A DNA stretch of 64,000 bases from Aminobacterium mobile DSM 12262. Lineage in GTDB: Bacteria; Synergistota; Synergistia; Synergistales; Aminobacteriaceae. Where the stretch lies: assembly GCF_000526395.1 (NCBI RefSeq), contig NZ_JAFZ01000003.1:62001-126000 (forward strand), read 5' to 3'. The position numbers and the translations under genes were made by a program. This document shows positions 31,164 through 39,220 of this stretch, in pieces (positions within the stretch are counted from its first letter, which is position 1; every line of letters begins with the position of its first letter). Below the pieces are notes generated by a model. It was not told the DNA's origin. It ran no database searches and saw only the letters and a program-made list of their open reading frames with translations.

Positions 31164-31976
31164 ATGATAGACTTCCTTGTTGGTGCAAGTCCTGTGATGC
31201 AGGCTTTAATGGGGACTCTCTTTACTTGGGGGCTTACATCTCTTGGTGCGGCTGTTGTGTTTCTGCGAAAAAACCCGAGCCAGAAATTGCTCGATATTAT
31301 GCTAGGTTTTGCTGCAGGAGTGATGATTGCGGCGAGTTATTGGTCTTTATTGGCTCCAGCTATTGATATGGCGACGGAAATGGGGAAGTTGCCTTGGCTT
31401 TCTCCAGCGGTGGGTTTCATGCTTGGCGGAGTTTCTCTTCGTATTATCGATCGTTTTTTGCCTCACCTTCATTTAGGCCTGCCTCGAAACGAGGCGGAGG
31501 GTGTTTCTACAACGTGGAAAAGGACGACTCTTCTTGTATTGGCCATTACGCTTCATAATATTCCTGAAGGCATGGCGGTAGGCGTTGCTTTTGGAGCTGT
31601 AGCATCTGGTATCCCATCTGCTTCCTTAGCAGGAGCTGCTGCTTTAGCGTTGGGTATCGGCATTCAGAATTTCCCTGAAGGGATGGCTGTTTCCATGCCA
31701 TTGCGTCGGGAAGGAATGGCACCAAGTAAGAGCTTCTGGTATGGTCAGCTTTCTGGAATTGTAGAGCCTTTTTTTGGTGTTATAGGCGCTTTGGCAGTAA
31801 CTGTGGCGCGCCCTATTCTACCTTATGCCTTGGCATTTGCCGCTGGTGCCATGATCTTTGTAGTTGTGGAAGAGGTTATTCCAGAATCTCAGCAAGGGGG
31901 ACATGGAGATCAGGCCACTATGGGGGTCCTTATTGGTTTCACTGTAATGATGATATTAGATGTAGCTTTAGGGTAA
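31164..31976 (+). CDS. ZIP-family divalent metal transporter
   Basis: 270 residues with eight hydrophobic segments. The ZIP signature is in helix IV as TLHNIPEGMAVGVAFGA (about residues 129-145), with a matching GIQNFPEGMAVSMPLR in helix V (about 170-185); both carry the His/Asn/Glu metal ligands. A third, VVEEVIPESQQGGHGD, lies in helix VI. Members import zinc, iron or manganese; the GufA-like subfamily fits best. It is followed 61 bp later by mntP, which exports manganese, so the two may balance divalent metals. Ribosome site GGAGTGA upstream of ATG 31164. Confidence 0.92.
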   Translation: MIDFLVGASPVMQALMGTLFTWGLTSLGAAVVFLRKNPSQKLLDIMLGFAAGVMIAASYWSLLAPAIDMATEMGKLPWLSPAVGFMLGGVSLRIIDRFLPHLHLGLPRNEAEGVSTTWKRTTLLVLAITLHNIPEGMAVGVAFGAVASGIPSASLAGAAALALGIGIQNFPEGMAVSMPLRREGMAPSKSFWYGQLSGIVEPFFGVIGALAVTVARPILPYALAFAAGAMIFVVVEEVIPESQQGGHGDQATMGVLIGFTVMMILDVALG

Positions 31977-32037
31977 AATAATTATTAGAGGGTCATAAGT
32001 GTTATGTTTACACTGTTTTTAAAAAGAAGGGTAGATT

Positions 32038-32592
32038 ATGTCAAATTTAGAAATATTGCTTACGGCAGCTGCTCTTTCTATGGATGCTTTTGCAGTCTCC
32101 ATAGGCGTAGGAGCTTGTCTGTCCGCGCCTTCCGTCGCCCCTGCTTTTCGAATGGGAGCCGCTTGTGGCGGTTTTCAGTTTGCCATGCCTTTGATAGGGT
32201 GGTGTTTAGGAGTTCAGTTGCTTGGCTTTATTGAAGCTTACGACCACTGGGTAGCCTTTGTCATCTTGTTTTTTCTCGGAGTGAATATGATCCGGGAATC
32301 TCAGGAAGAAAAAAGTTGTAATGGACAAGATCATACTCATGGAGCCATGTTGTTATCTCTTGCATTAGCTACTTCTATTGATGCTCTTGCAGCTGGGATA
32401 GGTGTTGCAGCCCTGAAGGGATCAGTTCTTCTATTGGCAGTTCCTGCCGGAATAATTACTGGTGGCTTATCGGCTTTTGGGGTCTTTTTGGGATTCCAAG
32501 CAGGGCGCATTTTGGGAAAGTACGTAGAGATAGCAGGCGGGTTGGTCTTATGTGGCATAGGGTTAAGAATTTTGTTGGTTTCGATTTTATGA
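32038..32592 (+). CDS. mntP: Manganese efflux protein MntP
   Basis: 184 residues with six membrane segments. Two repeated halves each contain the metal-site helix: ALSMDAFAVSIGVGA (residues 12-26) and ALATSIDALAAGIGVA (about 108-123), the paired Asp motifs of MntP (formerly YebN). It exports Mn(II) and protects against manganese excess. The usual yybP-ykoY manganese riboswitch is not visible in the 61 bp upstream. GAAGGG precedes the ATG. The poly-gamma-glutamate synthase gene starts 39 bp downstream. Confidence 0.93.
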   Translation: MSNLEILLTAAALSMDAFAVSIGVGACLSAPSVAPAFRMGAACGGFQFAMPLIGWCLGVQLLGFIEAYDHWVAFVILFFLGVNMIRESQEEKSCNGQDHTHGAMLLSLALATSIDALAAGIGVAALKGSVLLLAVPAGIITGGLSAFGVFLGFQAGRILGKYVEIAGGLVLCGIGLRILLVSIL

Positions 32593-32631: not shown

Positions 32632-33660
32632 ATGAGAATCTTGAAGTGTATTGATGTAAAACATGAAGAGGCCGTACAAATAGTGGTAACAGGGAGTCGG
32701 GGGAAAAGCAGCGTTGTCCGTTTTCTCTTCGCTGCTCTTTCTGCTTGTGGCCTCAGAACGTGGGCCAGAATTACCGGTGTCATTCCAAGGGAGCTCTCTC
32801 CTTCTGGAGAAAGAGCCATATTGAGAAGTTCTGGGGGGCATGTAGAAGAGATGCGGTGGTGGCTCTCTTCGATTCCTTCTGAAGCAGAAGCCATCGTTAT
32901 GGAAAATAGTGCAGTGGCCCCAGACTTACAGCGTCTTGCTGCGCAGTGGATGGGGAAGGATGCTCTTCTTGTCCTCACTAATGTCCGTCCTGACCATCAA
33001 GATGCGTGGGGAGCTGGCGAGATAGGGGCCGTTCGAGCCTTATCAGGAGGCATCCCCAAAGGAGCTACTGTTTTTACTCCTGAGAATACGGCCAGGTCTC
33101 TCTCTTTGCTTACAGCTTTAGAAGAGAAGGGGTGTCATGTTCATATAGCACCTCCGGTTTTTTCTTCCTCCTCTCCTGAATGGGTAAATGAAAATTTGTC
33201 TATAGTTCTTGCAATTCTCTCTTACCTAGGTTTAAACGAGAAGAAGGGTGAAGAAGCAGTGAGGTCTCTTCCACCAGATATAGCAGATTTTAAGGTTCTG
33301 TCGTTTGATGGAAGCCAGCTTGCTGTTGCTTTCTCTGCTAACGATATTGAGACTACGATCAGGCTTTTCAATACCCTTCAGTGGCCTATGGAGGGAACCA
33401 CAGTGCTTTTTAATAATCGACGAGACCGCCCAGAACGGCTTAAAGCCTTTCTCCCTTGGTTACAAAAAAAACAATGGAAGAGGTCGCTTCTTATGGGGGA
33501 TCGCCCTTTTAAATCACACCTTCTTTATAGAGAGGTCCTCTCTGTTGATGCTTTGAAATGTCTTATAAAAGAAGAAGGGCGTGTATTTGGATGCGGCAAT
33601 GTAGCGGGAGTGCCTCTTCAACTGCTTATTGAAGGGAAACAAGGTGAAGACCATGCATAA
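32632..33660 (+). CDS. pgsB: Poly-gamma-glutamate synthase PgsB/CapB-like ligase
   Basis: 342 residues. The P-loop VVTGSRGKSS (residues 18-27) and the Mur-ligase-like segments MENSAVAPDLQ, LTNVRPDHQDAWG and PKGATVFTPENT are those of PgsB/CapB, the ATP-dependent amide ligase that polymerises glutamate through gamma-carboxyl linkage. It is somewhat shorter than the B. subtilis enzyme (393). The ribosome site before ATG 32632 is weak. Its last codons overlap the PgsC-like start by 8 bp. The monomer might not be glutamate in this organism; the family mainly shows that an amino acid polymer is made. Confidence 0.85.
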   Translation: MRILKCIDVKHEEAVQIVVTGSRGKSSVVRFLFAALSACGLRTWARITGVIPRELSPSGERAILRSSGGHVEEMRWWLSSIPSEAEAIVMENSAVAPDLQRLAAQWMGKDALLVLTNVRPDHQDAWGAGEIGAVRALSGGIPKGATVFTPENTARSLSLLTALEEKGCHVHIAPPVFSSSSPEWVNENLSIVLAILSYLGLNEKKGEEAVRSLPPDIADFKVLSFDGSQLAVAFSANDIETTIRLFNTLQWPMEGTTVLFNNRRDRPERLKAFLPWLQKKQWKRSLLMGDRPFKSHLLYREVLSVDALKCLIKEEGRVFGCGNVAGVPLQLLIEGKQGEDHA

Positions 33661-34096
33661 TGTTCAGCTTATAACCATTGGCCTTGGAATTGTCCTTGGC
33701 ATGATTTTCTATCATAGAACAGGCCGTTCTTGCGGCGGCATTATTACCCCCGGAATCCTTGCGTTGCAGATTCATGATCCTCATGGGGTGGCCTGGGCTG
33801 TGGGGACGGCTATTCTCCTTTCCTTGATTTTGGAAGGAGTGGTACGATATACAGGCATATATGGGCGGCAGAGGATAGCTACTGCCATGATTATGGCTTT
33901 AGGAGCCAAACTTTTTTTAGATTATCTTTTCCCTGCCTCATCTCTCTGGTTGGGATGGGTTATTCCGGGGCTTATGGCCGCAGATATGCAGAGGCAGGGG
34001 ATTGGGGATACGTTGATAGGTACCGTTATCGTCACTATCGTTACGGCGATGACTCTTGAGAGTGTGGTCTTTCTAGGCCAGATATTAGGTGCTTAA
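33653..34096 (+). CDS. pgsC: Poly-gamma-glutamate biosynthesis membrane protein PgsC/CapC-like
   Basis: 147 residues from ATG 33653 (AAGGTGAAG upstream; the open frame extends 24 bp further up, into pgsB). Five hydrophobic segments; GLGIVLGMIFYHRTGRSCGGIITPG near the N-terminus is the typical PgsC start region (cited as residues 8-32), and LIGTVIVTIVTAMTLESVVFLG forms the final helix. PgsC forms a membrane complex with PgsB. Overlap with pgsB and the 1-bp gap to the next gene indicate one translational unit. Confidence 0.88.
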   Translation: MHNVQLITIGLGIVLGMIFYHRTGRSCGGIITPGILALQIHDPHGVAWAVGTAILLSLILEGVVRYTGIYGRQRIATAMIMALGAKLFLDYLFPASSLWLGWVIPGLMAADMQRQGIGDTLIGTVIVTIVTAMTLESVVFLGQILGA

Positions 34097-34097
34097 A

Positions 34098-35186
34098 ATG
34101 GGATATTCACAATACGACGACATTAAGGATTATCAGCAGCGCTATCATCGTTTTATATGGAAGAATCGTCTGCTTCTCTCTTTTCTTGCAATTGTCCTAC
34201 TGTTTCTATGGTTTTTCCCTCGGCAACAGGGGCTTTCCATTGAAGAGAAGAAAGTATGGGAGCGCGTTCGTCAGGCTGAGCTGCATTTATGGCAGTGGCG
34301 CGAAGATCTTCATATAGGAGCAGGAGGAGCTGATCCGTGGCAGCTCGGTCTTATTGGCTTGGAATGGAGTCCCTTAACGACGACCCTCGGAAGCTTAGAG
34401 GCGAAACGAACAGCGTGCCAACCAAGTTGGTCTGCTATTTTTCTCAGGGAATTTCATCGGCTAGGTCTCAAGAAAGGAGATAGGATTGCTATCTTTTCTT
34501 CCTCCTCTTTTCCAGGCTTGTTGCTTAATGTTTTAGAGGCTGCAGAACATGGCGGTTTCCAGATCGCTCTCGTAGTATCGCTGGGAGCCTCTACATGGGG
34601 GGCGAATGTGCCGGAAGCTCCTTGGCCTGTAATGGCTTCAGAGCTTCGAAGGGTAGGCCTTTTGCATAGCAAGGCTCAATATTATACCCTTGGTGGCAAT
34701 GATGAAAATGGCGGTGGTATAGCACCTGAAGGAATAGCCATTATGGAGAGGGCTGCAGCAGAAGAAGGCGTTCCCATTCTTCGTGGAAAAGATCTGCAGG
34801 AAATGATAGATCAAAAGATAAGGCTTGTGCGAAATTTTTCTCCTAAACTTGTTGTGAGCATTGGGGGATCCCATGCCAATATGGGAGAGGATGAAGAAAT
34901 TCTTTCTTTACCTGGAGGGCTTCATCTTCCAACATCCTCTAATCATGGCGGGGATGGGCTTATAGGGAAAGCTCTGAGAGAGGGGTATCCTGTCCTTCAT
35001 CTTTTAAATTTAAAAGATCTCAGCTTGAAATATGGCATTCCTTATAACGTACAACCTTCACAACAGCTTTCATCAAGCATCGGTTGGAAGTTTTCTTTAT
35101 TGGGCATAATCCTATTTATGGGTGTTCTAGCGGTTTATAAACGGTGGCAAATAAGCGACGACAGTGTGGGAGGAGTAAAGGATTGA
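34098..35186 (+). CDS. Poly-gamma-glutamate system protein (PgsW-like)
   Basis: 362 residues from ATG 34098 (TAGGTG upstream). One membrane helix near the N-terminus (LLLSFLAIVLLFLWFF, about 24-39), a large soluble region that should be outside the inner membrane, and a second helix near the C-terminus (about 326-346). LGLKKGDRIAIFSSSSFPGLLLN and LGASTWGANVPEAPW match the family found with PgsB/PgsC when PgsA is absent. It may take the transport or amidase role of PgsA. Assignment rests on recollection of the family plus gene order. Its stop overlaps the response-regulator start (TTGA). Confidence 0.75.
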   Translation: MGYSQYDDIKDYQQRYHRFIWKNRLLLSFLAIVLLFLWFFPRQQGLSIEEKKVWERVRQAELHLWQWREDLHIGAGGADPWQLGLIGLEWSPLTTTLGSLEAKRTACQPSWSAIFLREFHRLGLKKGDRIAIFSSSSFPGLLLNVLEAAEHGGFQIALVVSLGASTWGANVPEAPWPVMASELRRVGLLHSKAQYYTLGGNDENGGGIAPEGIAIMERAAAEEGVPILRGKDLQEMIDQKIRLVRNFSPKLVVSIGGSHANMGEDEEILSLPGGLHLPTSSNHGGDGLIGKALREGYPVLHLLNLKDLSLKYGIPYNVQPSQQLSSSIGWKFSLLGIILFMGVLAVYKRWQISDDSVGGVKD

Positions 35187-35812
35187 CGACTCTTCATATA
35201 GGCGTTATAGATGATGATCGAAATGTTCTTTACCAGCTGGAAAAAATGGCGGAGGAAGAAGATTGGCGTTTCTTTTCTACTGTGGAACCTGAGGAAGCAT
35301 TAGGTTGGGTGAAGGATGATGAAGTAGATCTTCTGTTGATGGATGTTTGGTTGCCGGTGGCCAGTGGCTTGCAGCTTATTCGAAAAGCCAGGGGATTGTC
35401 AGAAAAAGTAGTTCTTATTGGCCTTTCAGAAATGGATAAGGAAAACGTGGCTTCTCGCCTCCTCTTGGCGGGGGCCGATGATTTTATTTTGAAACCCCTT
35501 AGGATGCCAGACTTTCGTGCGCGCCTTCGGCTCCACGAAAAGTTGGTAAATTACAGGGATCAACTGAATTGGGATATTCGTAAAAAAGGTATTAGCATAG
35601 ATACGATGCGAGAAATTATCTATTGCGTTAAAAGGCATAAGGGGCCTATGGATTGTGATGCGGTTGCGGCTGCAAGCGGACTTGCGTATGTAACAGCTCA
35701 TCGATATCTTGACTTCCTGGCGGATCGAGGAATGGTTGTACGATTAACAGCTTCTCCAGATGGCCGTCCAGGGCGCCCTAAAACTTTTTATGAATGGAAG
35801 GGGGGGCTTTAA
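35183..35812 (+). CDS. Response regulator, CitB/DcuR-like (REC plus HTH)
   Basis: 209 residues from TTG 35183, chosen because GGAGGAG lies 7 nt upstream and because an upstream open stretch lies in the previous gene. The REC domain has the acidic cluster IDDD (residues 9-12), phospho-acceptor Asp in LLLMDVWLP (about 56) and Lys in ILKPL (about 107). The C-terminal HTH (about 150-195) contains AAASGLAYVTAHRYLDFLADRG. CitB/DcuR-type regulators work with dicarboxylate-sensing kinases, but no kinase is in this window. Embedded between pgsW- and larA-like genes, it probably governs this operon or a distant target. Confidence 0.85.
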   Translation: MTTLHIGVIDDDRNVLYQLEKMAEEEDWRFFSTVEPEEALGWVKDDEVDLLLMDVWLPVASGLQLIRKARGLSEKVVLIGLSEMDKENVASRLLLAGADDFILKPLRMPDFRARLRLHEKLVNYRDQLNWDIRKKGISIDTMREIIYCVKRHKGPMDCDAVAAASGLAYVTAHRYLDFLADRGMVVRLTASPDGRPGRPKTFYEWKGGL

Positions 35813-35817
35813 AACAT

Positions 35818-37089
35818 ATGAAGTCCAACATATCCTTAGCTTTAGGTCGAAGGAAAATAAAAATTTCTTTAGATAGAGCAGTATTGAGCGGAGTACAAAG
35901 TAAAAACAAGCCCCTTCCTAACTCTCCTGAAAATGCATTGAGCTCTCCTTATGAAAGCCCTTCTTTGCGAGAGATGCTTCGTTATGTAAAAGACATAACG
36001 GTTGTTGTTCCCGACGCTACTCGATCGTGGGAACAAGTCCCCCTTATGGCCCAAGCTATACGACGAGAAATTAGATCTGGCGGACGTTTTCCCGTGACAT
36101 GGGTTATAGGTGGAGGTCAGCATCGTTTGCCCACAAGGGAAGAGACGGAAATGCTTCTTGAAGATATTCCTCTTGCTGGCGATGTGGTTTCGCCCCATGA
36201 TAGTTTAAAGGGTATCGATACAGGAGAAAAAACCAGTCGCGGTACGCCGGTTATTCTTCATGAGGCTGTGGCTCAAGCAGATAGTCTTATCCTTCTGGGG
36301 GGAATAGTACATCATGATCTCGCAGGTTTTAGTGGGGGACGAAAATCTCTCTTGCCAGGTGTATCTGACGGCATCTCTATTCAACATAACCATAGCCTGT
36401 GTCTGGAAGGGGAGACTTTTGCTTCGGGTGTAGAATGTGGGCGATTGGAAGGTAACCCTGTGGCAGAAGATATGGCTGAATATGAAGAACTTGTTCTTCG
36501 GACGCGGAAAGGTTTTCTGCTCAATGTTATTCCAGATAGTTCTGGTTCCCCTTATTGTTACATAGCAGGACATCCAATTCGTGCCTGGCGCTACGGAACG
36601 GAGATAGCCTCATTGCTTCAAACGTTGTGGATTCAGGAATCAGTTCCATTAGTACTCGTTTCCTGTGGAGGATATCCTTACGATATTGATCTTTATCAGG
36701 CGACAAAATCTATTTCTGCTGTATTGCAAGCCCTTGCCCCGGGAGGTGGAATTCTTCTTTGTGCAGGTTTGGAAGATGGGGCTGGTCCTGGTACTTTCGC
36801 TCAGTCTCTTGCCCTTGCTATGGAAGCTCCGGAATTGGCCATGTCCGAACTGTCAAAAAATTTTACTATACCGGCTTTTATCGCGTCAAAGGTTGTTTTT
36901 GATCTGAAAGGCCATCCAGCAGCTCTCATGACTGAAAAGCCGGGACTTCCCTTCCCTGGGGAAACTTTCTTGAATTCAGCCGAGGCCATATCATGGCTTA
37001 ATAAATATATTCCTAAAGGCCCAGCTTTATGTGTTGAGGCAGGTAATTGTGTAGTTGTAAAAAAGAATATAAAGGGGGACGGACTATAG
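35818..37089 (+). CDS. larA: LarA-family nickel-pincer-dependent racemase/epimerase
   Basis: 423 residues from ATG 35818; GGAAGGGGGGG upstream favours it over an in-frame ATG at 35794. All key LarA residues are visible: PDATR (65-69), GGGQHR (98-103; catalytic His102), HHDLAGFSGGRKSLLPG (165-181; His166 and the pincer-bearing Lys176), and IQHNH (188-192; nickel His). Known members racemise lactate or other 2-hydroxy acids using the nickel-pincer cofactor made by LarB, LarC and LarE, none of which is in the window. Association with poly-gamma-glutamate genes is unusual and the substrate may not be lactate. Confidence 0.88.
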   Translation: MKSNISLALGRRKIKISLDRAVLSGVQSKNKPLPNSPENALSSPYESPSLREMLRYVKDITVVVPDATRSWEQVPLMAQAIRREIRSGGRFPVTWVIGGGQHRLPTREETEMLLEDIPLAGDVVSPHDSLKGIDTGEKTSRGTPVILHEAVAQADSLILLGGIVHHDLAGFSGGRKSLLPGVSDGISIQHNHSLCLEGETFASGVECGRLEGNPVAEDMAEYEELVLRTRKGFLLNVIPDSSGSPYCYIAGHPIRAWRYGTEIASLLQTLWIQESVPLVLVSCGGYPYDIDLYQATKSISAVLQALAPGGGILLCAGLEDGAGPGTFAQSLALAMEAPELAMSELSKNFTIPAFIASKVVFDLKGHPAALMTEKPGLPFPGETFLNSAEAISWLNKYIPKGPALCVEAGNCVVVKKNIKGDGL

Positions 37090-37138: not shown

Positions 37139-37894
37139 TTAGTTATTAAACCATTTATTTTGTAGGTCTTGAAGTTCTCCAGAATCTATTATTTCCTGTA
37201 GTGCCTTGTTAACAGCATTGAGAAAATCTTTTTCTTCTAAATGAATAGCCATAGCCTTGCCTGCGCCAGTAATTTCTTGCTTGAATGCGACGGCTATTTC
37301 TCCTTCAAAATCCCTTTGCTCCAAAAATTTTTTCGCAACAGGAATGTCCATGAGAGAAGCGTCTGCCCTGCCGAGTATTACTTCTCGCACGCAGTCGTCA
37401 AACTTCTGAAAGGTCTTTACCGCCGCTCCTTCTATAGATCGGGAGAAAGATTCCTGAACTGTCCCCAGCTGTACCGCAATAGTTTTCCCCTTCATGTCGT
37501 TGAGTTCTTTCATCGAATTGTTCTTAGCCTGTACAATAAAGGCACTCATGGAGATTTCATAAGGAGTAGAGAAAGCGACTCGCTTAGCCCGTTCAGGTGT
37601 AGCGCTCATCCCTGCGGCAACAATATGAATTTTCTTTGCCAAAAGAGAGGGGATAAGGCTGTCAAAAGGCATGTCTGCCCATTCAAGCTTTTTCCCGAGC
37701 TTTCTGGCGATAGTCTCCATAAGTTCAATATCGAAACCTTGCAGGTTATTTTTTTCGTCGCGAAACTCGTAAGGGGGATAAGTACTCTCGGTCCCTACTA
37801 TAATTGTATTGCTACCCAATACTGCAGCAGAGGCAAGAAAAGGAAAACACAAAAACAGAAGAGTTACAGCGAGAAATACGGAAATTTGTTTCAT
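37139..37894 (-). CDS. Amino acid ABC transporter substrate-binding protein (family 3)
   Basis: 251 residues with a signal peptide (MKQISVFLAVTLLFLCFPFLASAA). The mature part starts GSNTIIVGTESTYPPYEF, then LQGFDIELMETIARKLGKK, the signature of family 3 polar amino acid binding proteins, with WADMPFDSLIPSLLAKKI and MSATPERAKRVAFSTPY. It binds an amino acid in the periplasm; no cognate permease or ATPase gene is nearby, so it is an orphan or works with a system elsewhere. Ribosome site GGAGGTG upstream of ATG 37894. Convergent with larA. Confidence 0.93.
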   Translation of the reverse strand: MKQISVFLAVTLLFLCFPFLASAAVLGSNTIIVGTESTYPPYEFRDEKNNLQGFDIELMETIARKLGKKLEWADMPFDSLIPSLLAKKIHIVAAGMSATPERAKRVAFSTPYEISMSAFIVQAKNNSMKELNDMKGKTIAVQLGTVQESFSRSIEGAAVKTFQKFDDCVREVILGRADASLMDIPVAKKFLEQRDFEGEIAVAFKQEITGAGKAMAIHLEEKDFLNAVNKALQEIIDSGELQDLQNKWFNN

Positions 37895-38023: not shown

Positions 38024-39220
38024 ATGTATTGGGAGTCTCTTTTTAACCACCGAGCATTGCGACTACAACCATCTATCATCCAGGAAATGATGGCGTTTGC
38101 TTCTCGTCCAGGTGTCATTTCTTTTGCGGCAGGACAACCTTCTGAAGATTTGTACCCGACAGAGGCCATTGCTGAAGGGCTGAAGTTTTCATTATCGGAA
38201 CCTTTTGTTCTAGCCTATCCGAATACAGCAGGGGATACTTCTTTGCGAGAGTGGATTTCAGTATGGATGGCGAAAGAGGGTCTGTCCTCAGGGGAAAAAG
38301 GGGGGAAAAACATTCTCCTTACAACTGGTTCACAGCAGGGGCTTAATATCCTTTCCCAACTTTTTTTGCAAGAAGGGGATGGAGTTATAGTCGAAAATCC
38401 GTCATATCCTGAGGCAATGTTGACATTTGCCAAGGAAGGTGCCAGATTTTTCCCGGTCTCTCTCGATGAAGAAGGACCGATCCCAGAAGAATTAGAGACT
38501 CTCTTATCTCAAGAAAAAATTCGTTTCTTCTACACGATTCCTACTTTCCAAAATCCATCAGGGCGCAGCACCTCTGCAGCGAGGAAAAAAATAATTCTTG
38601 AGGTGTTGAAGAGACATAATGTTTTTGTTGTAGAGGATGACCCCTATCGTCAATTATGGTTTGATGAGGAACCTGCGTGTACATATTTAAGTATGGCTGA
38701 AAAAGAGAATCATGTTGTGTATTTAGGTAGCTTTTCAAAAATTATTGCTCCTGGTCTTCGATGTGGCTGGATGGTGCTTCCCCCTGAAGTTATGGAAAAA
38801 GCTGTGTATTTACGATTGACCTTAGAACTAGGAGTGTCCGCTCTTTTGCAGAAAACCGTATTATATGTTGTGTCGCAAGAAAAATTTTTACATCATATGC
38901 GCAGAATCAGAGCTGTATATGCTCAGCGCCGTCATGCTATGGCTTCAGCGGTGGAAGAATATTTGAATCCTCTAGGCTTTAAAAGTGTTGTTCCCAAGGG
39001 TGGTTTTTTCTTTTGGGGTGAGCTCCCTGGGGTGAATGGCGTGGATCTTTCATATTTGGCAGCGGCTAAACATAAAGTGGCTGTTATTCCTGGGGAAATA
39101 TTTTTCTCCAAACCTGAAGAGGGACGTTTCTGGATGCGTCTCTCTTTTGCCAAGGTGGGAGAGGAGAAAATTATAGATGGAGTGAAACGTTTGTCTTGTG
39201 CAATTCAGGAATTTATATGA
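38024..39220 (+). CDS. Class I/II PLP-dependent aminotransferase (2-aminoadipate/MocR-like group)
   Basis: 398 residues. SFAAGQPSEDLYPTEAI at the start, TTGSQQGLNIL, ENPSYPEAM, IPTFQNPSGRS, VEDDPYRQLWFDEEP, and the PLP lysine in YLGSFSKIIAPGLRCGWM (about residues 235-252) place it with LysN/aminoadipate and aromatic/multisubstrate aminotransferases. It lacks the GntR HTH domain of full MocR regulators. It has GAGGTGATGAC before ATG 38024. It immediately precedes the lysine-regulated lysA transcript, so lysine or diaminopimelate metabolism is possible, but the gene has a separate transcript start region and its substrate is uncertain. Confidence 0.88.
   Translation: MYWESLFNHRALRLQPSIIQEMMAFASRPGVISFAAGQPSEDLYPTEAIAEGLKFSLSEPFVLAYPNTAGDTSLREWISVWMAKEGLSSGEKGGKNILLTTGSQQGLNILSQLFLQEGDGVIVENPSYPEAMLTFAKEGARFFPVSLDEEGPIPEELETLLSQEKIRFFYTIPTFQNPSGRSTSAARKKIILEVLKRHNVFVVEDDPYRQLWFDEEPACTYLSMAEKENHVVYLGSFSKIIAPGLRCGWMVLPPEVMEKAVYLRLTLELGVSALLQKTVLYVVSQEKFLHHMRRIRAVYAQRRHAMASAVEEYLNPLGFKSVVPKGGFFFWGELPGVNGVDLSYLAAAKHKVAVIPGEIFFSKPEEGRFWMRLSFAKVGEEKIIDGVKRLSCAIQEFI

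Follow-up and report, generated by a model that had tools for sequence, protein, structure and literature searches.

Among the closest known counterparts of the locus analyzed here is pgsBCA/capBCA of Bacillus and relatives, in which a PgsB-like ligase and a CapC-like membrane protein are likewise encoded in overlapping order. Classical poly-gamma-glutamate (PGA) loci carry a GGT-family enzyme, and GGT adjoins the corresponding cluster in many Synergistota. The two systems differ in that CapA/PgsA (PF09587) has no match in the three genomes of the Aminobacterium group (G000, G030, and G031), where PgsW takes the third position; in that the wider Synergistota cluster adds a histidine kinase and response regulator (RR), DUF6305, a Zn hydrolase, and a carrier; and in that PgsB and PgsC of the window score under the equivalog cut-offs.

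Francisella also has a three-gene capBCA locus; its capA has been called a poly-gamma-glutamate system protein in one paper (PMC5362203), and the locus is reported as not required for capsule (PMC4688374). The likeness of this locus to ours is one of description rather than of sequence comparison with the PgsW studied here. Unlike the Francisella locus, Synergistota clusters carry GGT or a C69 peptidase, a Zn hydrolase, a carrier, a histidine kinase with its RR, and sometimes LarA. Literature searches on PgsW, on LarA with polyglutamate, and on Synergistetes with polyglutamate returned nothing on this system.

A tight pgs-regulator-larA gene string in Aminobacterium

We analyzed a 64,000-nucleotide stretch of the genome of the amino-acid-fermenting Aminobacterium mobile DSM 12262 (contig NZ_JAFZ01000003.1, positions 62,001 to 126,000), hereafter the window. 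Five plus-strand genes form one tight string, in the places originally predicted: a PgsB-like Mur-ligase-type gamma-glutamyl ligase of 342 aa with the P-loop TGSRGKS (32632..33660), recognized by profile scores and conserved motifs; a PgsC/CapC-like membrane protein (33653..34096); PgsW, a poly-gamma-glutamate system protein (34098..35186); an orphan RR with a receiver domain (PF00072) and a C-terminal HTH (35183..35812); and a LarA-superfamily (NPN-dependent) 2-hydroxy acid racemase (35818..37089), identified by profiles and alignment. The pgsB stop (33658-33660) overlaps pgsC, whose ATG lies at 33653 within an open reading frame beginning at TTG 33629. The pgsC stop (34094-34096) is followed by pgsW after 1 bp if ATG 34098 is the start, or overlaps it if GTG 34089 is used. 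The predicted TTGA overlap is seen in the sequence, the RR start TTG 35183 sharing bases with the pgsW stop TGA (35184-35186), as is the 5-bp gap between the RR stop (35810-35812) and the larA ATG at 35818. Such an arrangement would suit common transcription; scans for promoters and terminators gave no informative signal.

Upstream, profile searches identified a plus-strand MntP-like manganese exporter gene (32038..32592), 39 bp from pgsB and adjoining it in each of the genus's three species; together with the preceding ZupT-like transporter gene (31164-31976), it is possibly co-transcribed with the pgs string. Downstream, profiles and synteny identified a Family 3 amino-acid-type solute-binding protein on the minus strand, convergent with larA (37139..37894), followed by a plus-strand PLP aminotransferase (38024..39220). 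The binding protein is a conserved LarA neighbor in several genera, also in genomes without pgs genes; in the window it stands alone, with no genes for an amino-acid ABC permease or ATPase adjacent.

Family membership of the ligase and membrane proteins is uneven. PgsW scores 349.5 bits against TIGR04332 (NCBIfam cut-off 100) and shares the B-C-W order of that family. PgsC exceeds the Pfam cut-off for CapC (PF14102; 99.7 versus 27 bits) and falls under the NCBIfam equivalog cut-off of TIGR04011 (81.4 versus 96.45), as PgsB does for TIGR04012 (120.6 versus 222.7). Across 51 Synergistota homologues of PgsB, the Mur-ligase-type P-loop and ligase motifs (T20-G21-R23-G24-K25-S26, E91-N92, D121-H122, and R263/D265/R266) are conserved, and P-loop residues G21/R23/G24/K25/S26 are kept in at least 88%. 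In an AlphaFold2 model of PgsW (pLDDT 92.7), N- and C-terminal transmembrane helices flank an alpha/beta domain. Compared with PDB structures, this model gave no convincing fold match, the hits being weak and Rossmann-type (TM about 0.2), and at the search thresholds applied the PDB contained no sequence relatives of PgsW or PgsB.

A phylum-wide cluster and its stripped Aminobacterium form

Comparison across Synergistota revealed a phylum-wide cluster of DUF6305, a DctM/DcuC-type carrier, a periplasmic AspA/M14-like Zn hydrolase, GGT (or a C69 peptidase), PgsB, PgsC, PgsW, a histidine kinase, and an RR, of which the window string is a stripped form. The fuller cluster is present in genera with RR-type pgs clusters (including G121, G182, G042, and G021-24), while in Aminobacterium the carrier/hydrolase module sits elsewhere, away from the pgs string. 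Among 188 genomes, PgsW and DUF6305 occur together in 63, and just one of them occurs in 9 and 7. To our knowledge, neither of these named families has been assigned a function. The AspA-like model has matches among M14/AspA zinc hydrolases, and N-terminal signal-like hydrophobic stretches are found on the GGT, C69, AspA-like, and DUF6305 proteins.

One Synergistota subfamily of PgsW is encoded without PgsB/C: at about 10 loci it accompanies the carrier, the Zn hydrolase, and the C69 peptidase. A profile search beside this second PgsW type found no divergent PgsB/C, and two neighbors whose length had made them candidates turned out to be an SBF transporter and a phosphatase. This gene content is no worse a fit to a role in uptake or processing than to polymer synthesis.

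These observations bear on whether PgsB, PgsC, and PgsW build a capsule at all. They might instead make short gamma-glutamyl compounds, or take up and process gamma-glutamyl peptides with the carrier and secreted hydrolases, a serious possibility even if we would not call it probable. The sub-cut-off scores of PgsB and PgsC, the missing CapA in the genus, the PgsW loci without PgsB/C, and the reported dispensability of Francisella capBCA for capsule all point that way. Against it, PgsB and PgsC retain conserved motifs and stand in B-C-W order beside GGT, an arrangement reminiscent of classical PGA loci. This reading overlaps our best explanation, given below, which spans polymer and short compound alike.

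Loss of the partner kinase in Aminobacterium

The RR had been described as an orphan, which holds for the genus: no homologue of the cluster kinase was found anywhere in the three Aminobacterium-group genomes at 1e-10, and a kinase hidden elsewhere in the genome was thereby rejected. Beyond the genus the description fails. In all 20 other RR-containing genomes, the RR is paired with a cluster-encoded kinase, normally right after PgsW, indicating that the RR is orphan because the genus lost its kinase. The window RR keeps the phospho-acceptor Asp54, the acidic pocket, the switch T/S, and Lys104, while in the two other genomes the phospho-acceptor is replaced by Asn (G031) or the switch residue is Ala (G030).

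Linkage of LarA to pgs genes across genomes

The order PgsB-PgsC-PgsW-(histidine kinase)-RR-LarA recurs in 8 genomes from 5 genera, with adjacent genes overlapping or no more than 32 bp apart and LarA proteins 47-65% identical. The presence of LarA directly after the RR in this many lineages means that the association extends beyond this strain, as the original prediction required, and rules out a strain-specific accident.

The linkage could nevertheless reflect inherited gene order without function, an ancestral LarA beside its binding protein having lain behind pgs-RR; we consider this rather unlikely. Each half of such an ancestral array can be seen on its own: LarA and the Family 3 binding protein adjoin in two genomes without pgs (G176 and G177), and the RR and the binding protein adjoin without LarA in G027, G041, G039, and the second copy in G042. 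LarA is moreover adjacent to pgs in just 8 genomes, and in 20 other genomes its orthologue lies away from pgs, beside symporters or aminotransferases. Set against this, adjacency has been kept across two families at about 47-51% LarA identity, with overlapping or near-abutting genes, while the genes downstream of LarA vary (CheR-type in G042 and G025, the binding protein in others). At the genus level, the LarA orthologue is also commoner with RR-type pgs clusters (8/13 versus 3/22; Fisher p 0.007, phylogeny ignored). For the pgs-linked copies, the LarA tree allows either a single origin followed by losses or two separate origins.

Active site, pocket, and probable substrate of LarA

The prediction that LarA keeps its catalytic and nickel-binding residues was borne out. 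His102, His166, Lys176, and His190/192 (numbered from the start at 35818) are present, and Asp66, Arg69, His102, His166, Lys176, His192, Tyr293, Gln294, and Lys297 do not vary among 18 LarA orthologues. The protein passes Pfam Lar_N and has the superfamily hallmarks, namely two catalytic His, the NPN Lys, the Ni-ligand His, and the Asp and Arg of DxxR. Cofactor synthesis genes are absent from the window, as noted originally, but not from the genome: larC and larE lie at about 295-298 kb of C1 with scores over their cut-offs, and a larB candidate at C1:517771 exceeds the AIRC cut-off and is distinct from a strong PurE-like match.

Pocket residues D167/L168/F354/I355 place D, L, F, and I at LarA positions 175, 176, 358, and 359. 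Under the published specificity rules (PMC11770544), lactate racemase requires F, F, W, and E/Q at these positions; malate racemase, H/Q and K at 358/359; 2-hydroxyglutarate racemase, Y, F, H/Q, and T; gluconate 2-epimerase, E, V, A, and H; and LarAH10/HHR, F/Y at 358 with a hydrophobic pocket. The window protein lacks the gluconate 2-epimerase set, and its pocket appears nearest to the hydrophobic LarAH10 group, with which it has in common an aromatic F/Y in place of W358, the catalytic His pair, and the NPN-binding residues. LarAH10 is also its best NCBIfam model, although the protein differs in having Asp at 175 and in scoring 248 bits, about half of the equivalog cut-off of 540. LarA is thus unlike lactate racemase, its specificity residues and best model pointing elsewhere, in agreement with the original suggestion that it may act on a related 2-hydroxy acid.

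Across the orthologue group, the pocket signature is D-L/M-F/Y-I/C, and Clostridia/Halanaerobium relatives with D175, L/M/I176, and F/Y358 lie mostly beside an amino-acid-type binding protein, the LarA search pattern favoring HD[LM]AG sequences. Among these are ABC-transporter and aminotransferase operons (L188 and L221); together with L198, they resemble the window in their D-L/I-F/Y pocket, same-family binding protein, and nearby aminotransferase. They differ in LarA identity (about 31-37%), in having a complete ABC transporter where the window has a lone binding protein, and in having no pgs genes. Judged by the four pocket positions and the gene neighbors, LarA most likely racemizes a 2-hydroxy acid derived from an amino acid, under regulation shared with the pgs genes; the enzyme looks suited to amino-acid breakdown products, not to polymer building.

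The original proposal had tied LarA to a polymer monomer, and a 2-hydroxy acid such as 2-hydroxyglutarate, entering a mixed or capped polyglutamate, would account for the tight physical coupling in 8 genomes and for PgsW in 26 of the 28 genomes carrying the LarA orthologue. We regard this as very improbable: the 2-hydroxyglutarate signature matches at 0 of 4 positions (D, L/M, F/Y, and I/C being found instead), most pgs clusters lack LarA and most LarA orthologues lie away from pgs, and beyond the phylum the closest relatives accompany amino-acid transport and transamination. Nor does LarA offer evidence for an unusual polymer. Slightly weaker still is the view that LarA simply racemizes lactate or malate and has no special role, for although superfamily membership, the intact NPN site, and a second-best match to the malate racemase model agree with it, the protein is far under every equivalog cut-off (248/540 for LarAH10, 214/500 for malate, and 161/460 for lactate) and lacks both the malate H/Q-K pair, having F and I, and the lactate F-F-W-E/Q set.

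A proposed make-and-recycle system

The explanation we favor, and hold at about even confidence, is that the string is a reduced, Aminobacterium-type version of a cluster that makes a gamma-glutamyl polymer or compound and recycles it, with a kinase-less RR and a LarA acting on an amino-acid-derived 2-hydroxy acid. PgsB (the ligase) and PgsC would form the gamma-glutamyl product at the membrane, with PgsW, a membrane-anchored alpha/beta protein, as their putative partner instead of CapA/PgsA. Where the cluster is fuller, the operon would be under two-component control; secreted GGT or C69 peptidase and the periplasmic Zn hydrolase may degrade the product and the DctM/DcuC-type carrier may help to recover it. 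The Aminobacterium RR probably works without a kinase, and LarA, an NPN-dependent racemase at the end of the string, would be expressed under the same RR. By racemizing an amino-acid-derived 2-hydroxy acid, LarA would feed amino-acid fermentation. Counting against this explanation are the sub-cut-off scores of PgsB and PgsC, the lone binding protein in the window, the PgsW loci without PgsB/C, and the finding that of 23 genomes with an RR in the pgs cluster, just 8 have LarA alongside.

More tentatively, PgsW, DUF6305, the DctM/DcuC-type carrier, and the periplasmic Zn hydrolase might constitute a previously undescribed envelope system by which anaerobic amino-acid fermenters make, break down, and take back gamma-glutamyl compounds within their amino-acid metabolism. 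PgsB/C, the two-component system, and the LarA-type racemase would then be plug-ins, and "poly-gamma-glutamate capsule" would be the wrong label.

The cluster ties PgsW and DUF6305 to a carrier and secreted hydrolases in most PgsW-bearing Synergistota; these links, together with the PgsW loci lacking polymer-synthesis genes, make the roles of both families testable. The D-L/M-F/Y-I/C pocket gives this LarA group a clear substrate class to try, and the Aminobacterium RR offers a modest natural example of regulator drift following the loss of a kinase.

Conserved pgs cluster in Synergistota

In Aminobacterium mobile, the genes for PgsB-like, PgsC-like and PgsW (TIGR04332) proteins, a response regulator (RR) and a LarA homologue constitute one tight string on the plus strand (32632-37089). 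The window lies on contig C3 of a 2.1 Mb genome that comprises five contigs and is 99.7% complete. Re-reading of the window reproduced all coordinates, overlaps and spacings of the original prediction; the pgsC-pgsW junction is a 1-bp gap with the start ATG 34098 and an overlap with GTG 34089. PgsW is a secure member of its family. The PgsB protein retains the ligase motifs while scoring well under the PgsB equivalog cut-off, and the PgsC protein carries a CapC domain with a score under the NCBIfam PgsC cut-off, so that the cautious names "PgsB-like" and "PgsC-like" are preferable. Searches of the three Aminobacterium-group genomes found no protein of the CapA/PgsA family.

Across the phylum (188 genomes), PgsW was present in 72 genomes, and its flanks, read in 68 of these, revealed a conserved pgs cluster; some of the compared loci are truncated at contig ends, and several genomes are MAGs. 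The recurring string comprises DUF6305, a DctM/DcuC-like carrier, an AspA/AstE-like protein, a gamma-glutamyltransferase (GGT) or C69 peptidase, PgsB, PgsC, PgsW, a histidine kinase and the RR. Signal-like N-terminal segments occur in DUF6305, the AspA-like protein, GGT and C69, and the model of the AspA-like protein (pLDDT 92.5) matches zinc carboxypeptidases, succinylglutamate desuccinylase, Csd4 and MpaA. DUF6305 was detected in 63/72 genomes with PgsW versus 7/116 without it, a co-occurrence that ignores phylogeny.

In the window's genome, the carrier/AspA-like/C69 module lies away from the pgs string in two copies, one on contig C1 (L155, ~489-496 kb) and one on C3 just upstream of the window (L156, ~51-60 kb), the latter showing no DUF6305 match. 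Its place directly upstream of pgsB is taken by ZupT-like and MntP-like metal transporter genes (31164-32592), with MntP at this site in each of the genus's three species. The polymer operon may thus have a link to metals.

Kinase loss and regulator divergence

The RR had been described as an orphan, which holds for the Aminobacterium group, where no homologue of the cluster kinase was found in the three genomes searched, but not more widely: all 20 other RR-bearing genomes encode the kinase within the cluster, usually directly after PgsW. The kinase has thus been lost in this group. The window's RR (35183-35812) retains its phosphorylation residues, including the phospho-acceptor Asp and the T/S switch. 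Among the congeneric RRs (L065:9235-9867; L066:10341-10973), that of G031 carries Asn in place of the phospho-acceptor Asp and that of G030 carries Ala at the switch position. This pattern is consistent with a regulator that, once its kinase was lost, came under weaker constraint or acts independently of a kinase.

Partial association of LarA with the pgs cluster

LarA orthologues (identity >=40%, E <=1e-70; the next matches follow only after a gap, at 35% and 1e-48) were found in 28 genomes. The gene directly follows the RR in eight genomes of five genera (G000, G030, G031; G025, G029; G042; G103; G121), spaced -8 to +18 bp where measured, and the joining is therefore not confined to this strain. 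It lies away from the RR in the other 20. Orthologues occur in 8/13 RR-type PgsW genera versus 3/22 other genera (p 0.007, uncorrected for phylogeny). Taken together, these patterns indicate a real but partial association. Linked copies cluster in both the LarA and PgsW trees, a topology compatible with one origin plus losses as well as with two origins.

Elsewhere, LarA adjoins a sodium/solute symporter (G011-G016), an aminotransferase and DcuC-type carrier (G142), or a family 3 binding protein in genomes without any PgsW (G176, G177). A further arrangement, read in G023, has a DUF711 protein and a Gate-domain transporter on one side of LarA and a class V aminotransferase on the other; at L080:7985-13252 this setting possibly hints at the substrate. 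At L157:9753-12200, the window's genome also has a third, divergent LarA-type gene; the protein encoded after it resembles the 5-keto-gluconate epimerase IolO (185 bits, under the IolO cut-off).

LarA active site and probable substrate class

The NPN-type active site of LarA is intact. Of the cofactor genes, noted originally as missing from the window, larC and larE and a larB candidate are present elsewhere in the genome. At the four published specificity positions (175, 176, 358 and 359; PMC11770544), profile alignment to the LarA and Mar2 structures gave D, L/M, F/Y and I/C, which differs from the signatures for lactate, malate, 2-hydroxyglutarate and gluconate alike; earlier doubt about a plain lactate racemase was accordingly well placed. 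Two features, an aromatic side chain at 358 and a best NCBIfam score with LarAH10, suggest the broad "hydrophobic" group; the Asp at 175 is unusual.

Beyond the Synergistota, relatives from Clostridia and Halanaerobium with D175, L/M/I176 and F/Y358 mostly adjoin an amino-acid-type binding protein (D-L/I-F/Y pockets at L188, L191, L192, L194, L196, L198, L201, L186 and L221), a count that is not a survey because the search patterns favour the D-L/M motif. The two loci read fully, L188 and L221, are operons with a binding protein and a class I aminotransferase; L188 also includes an annotated permease and ATPase, and the Halanaerobium operon additionally contains alanine dehydrogenase and alanine racemase. 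From the four positions and these neighbourhoods, we infer that LarA interconverts the two forms of a 2-hydroxy acid that derives from an amino acid. It may thereby contribute to amino-acid fermentation, and the RR may control larA jointly with the pgs genes. Aminobacterium colombiense ALA-1, of the same genus, is an asaccharolytic fermenter of amino acids (PMC3035294).

Polymer product and the role of PgsW

LarA gives no ground for the mixed, non-plain polymer once proposed. PgsB and PgsC would link glutamate by gamma bonds, PgsW would help them at the membrane, and secreted hydrolases and the carrier would retrieve the product, a putative gamma-glutamyl polymer. A capsule should not be assumed: in another phylum, a three-gene cap locus, the capA of which one paper calls a poly-gamma-glutamate system protein (PMC5362203), has been reported dispensable for the capsule (PMC4688374), a further reason for caution with the Synergistota cluster.

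Comparison of the confident PgsW model (pLDDT 92.7) with the PDB gave no clear match in fold. A separate PgsW subfamily, ~30% identical, ends the DUF6305-carrier-AspA-like hydrolase-C69 string, and neither PgsB nor PgsC was found nearby, also by profile search (L096, L113, L136, L140, L258 and L267; second copies in L122, L125, L261 and L262). PgsW may therefore be as much a part of the carrier/hydrolase system as of polymer synthesis, and the poly-gamma-glutamate name of its family may mislead.
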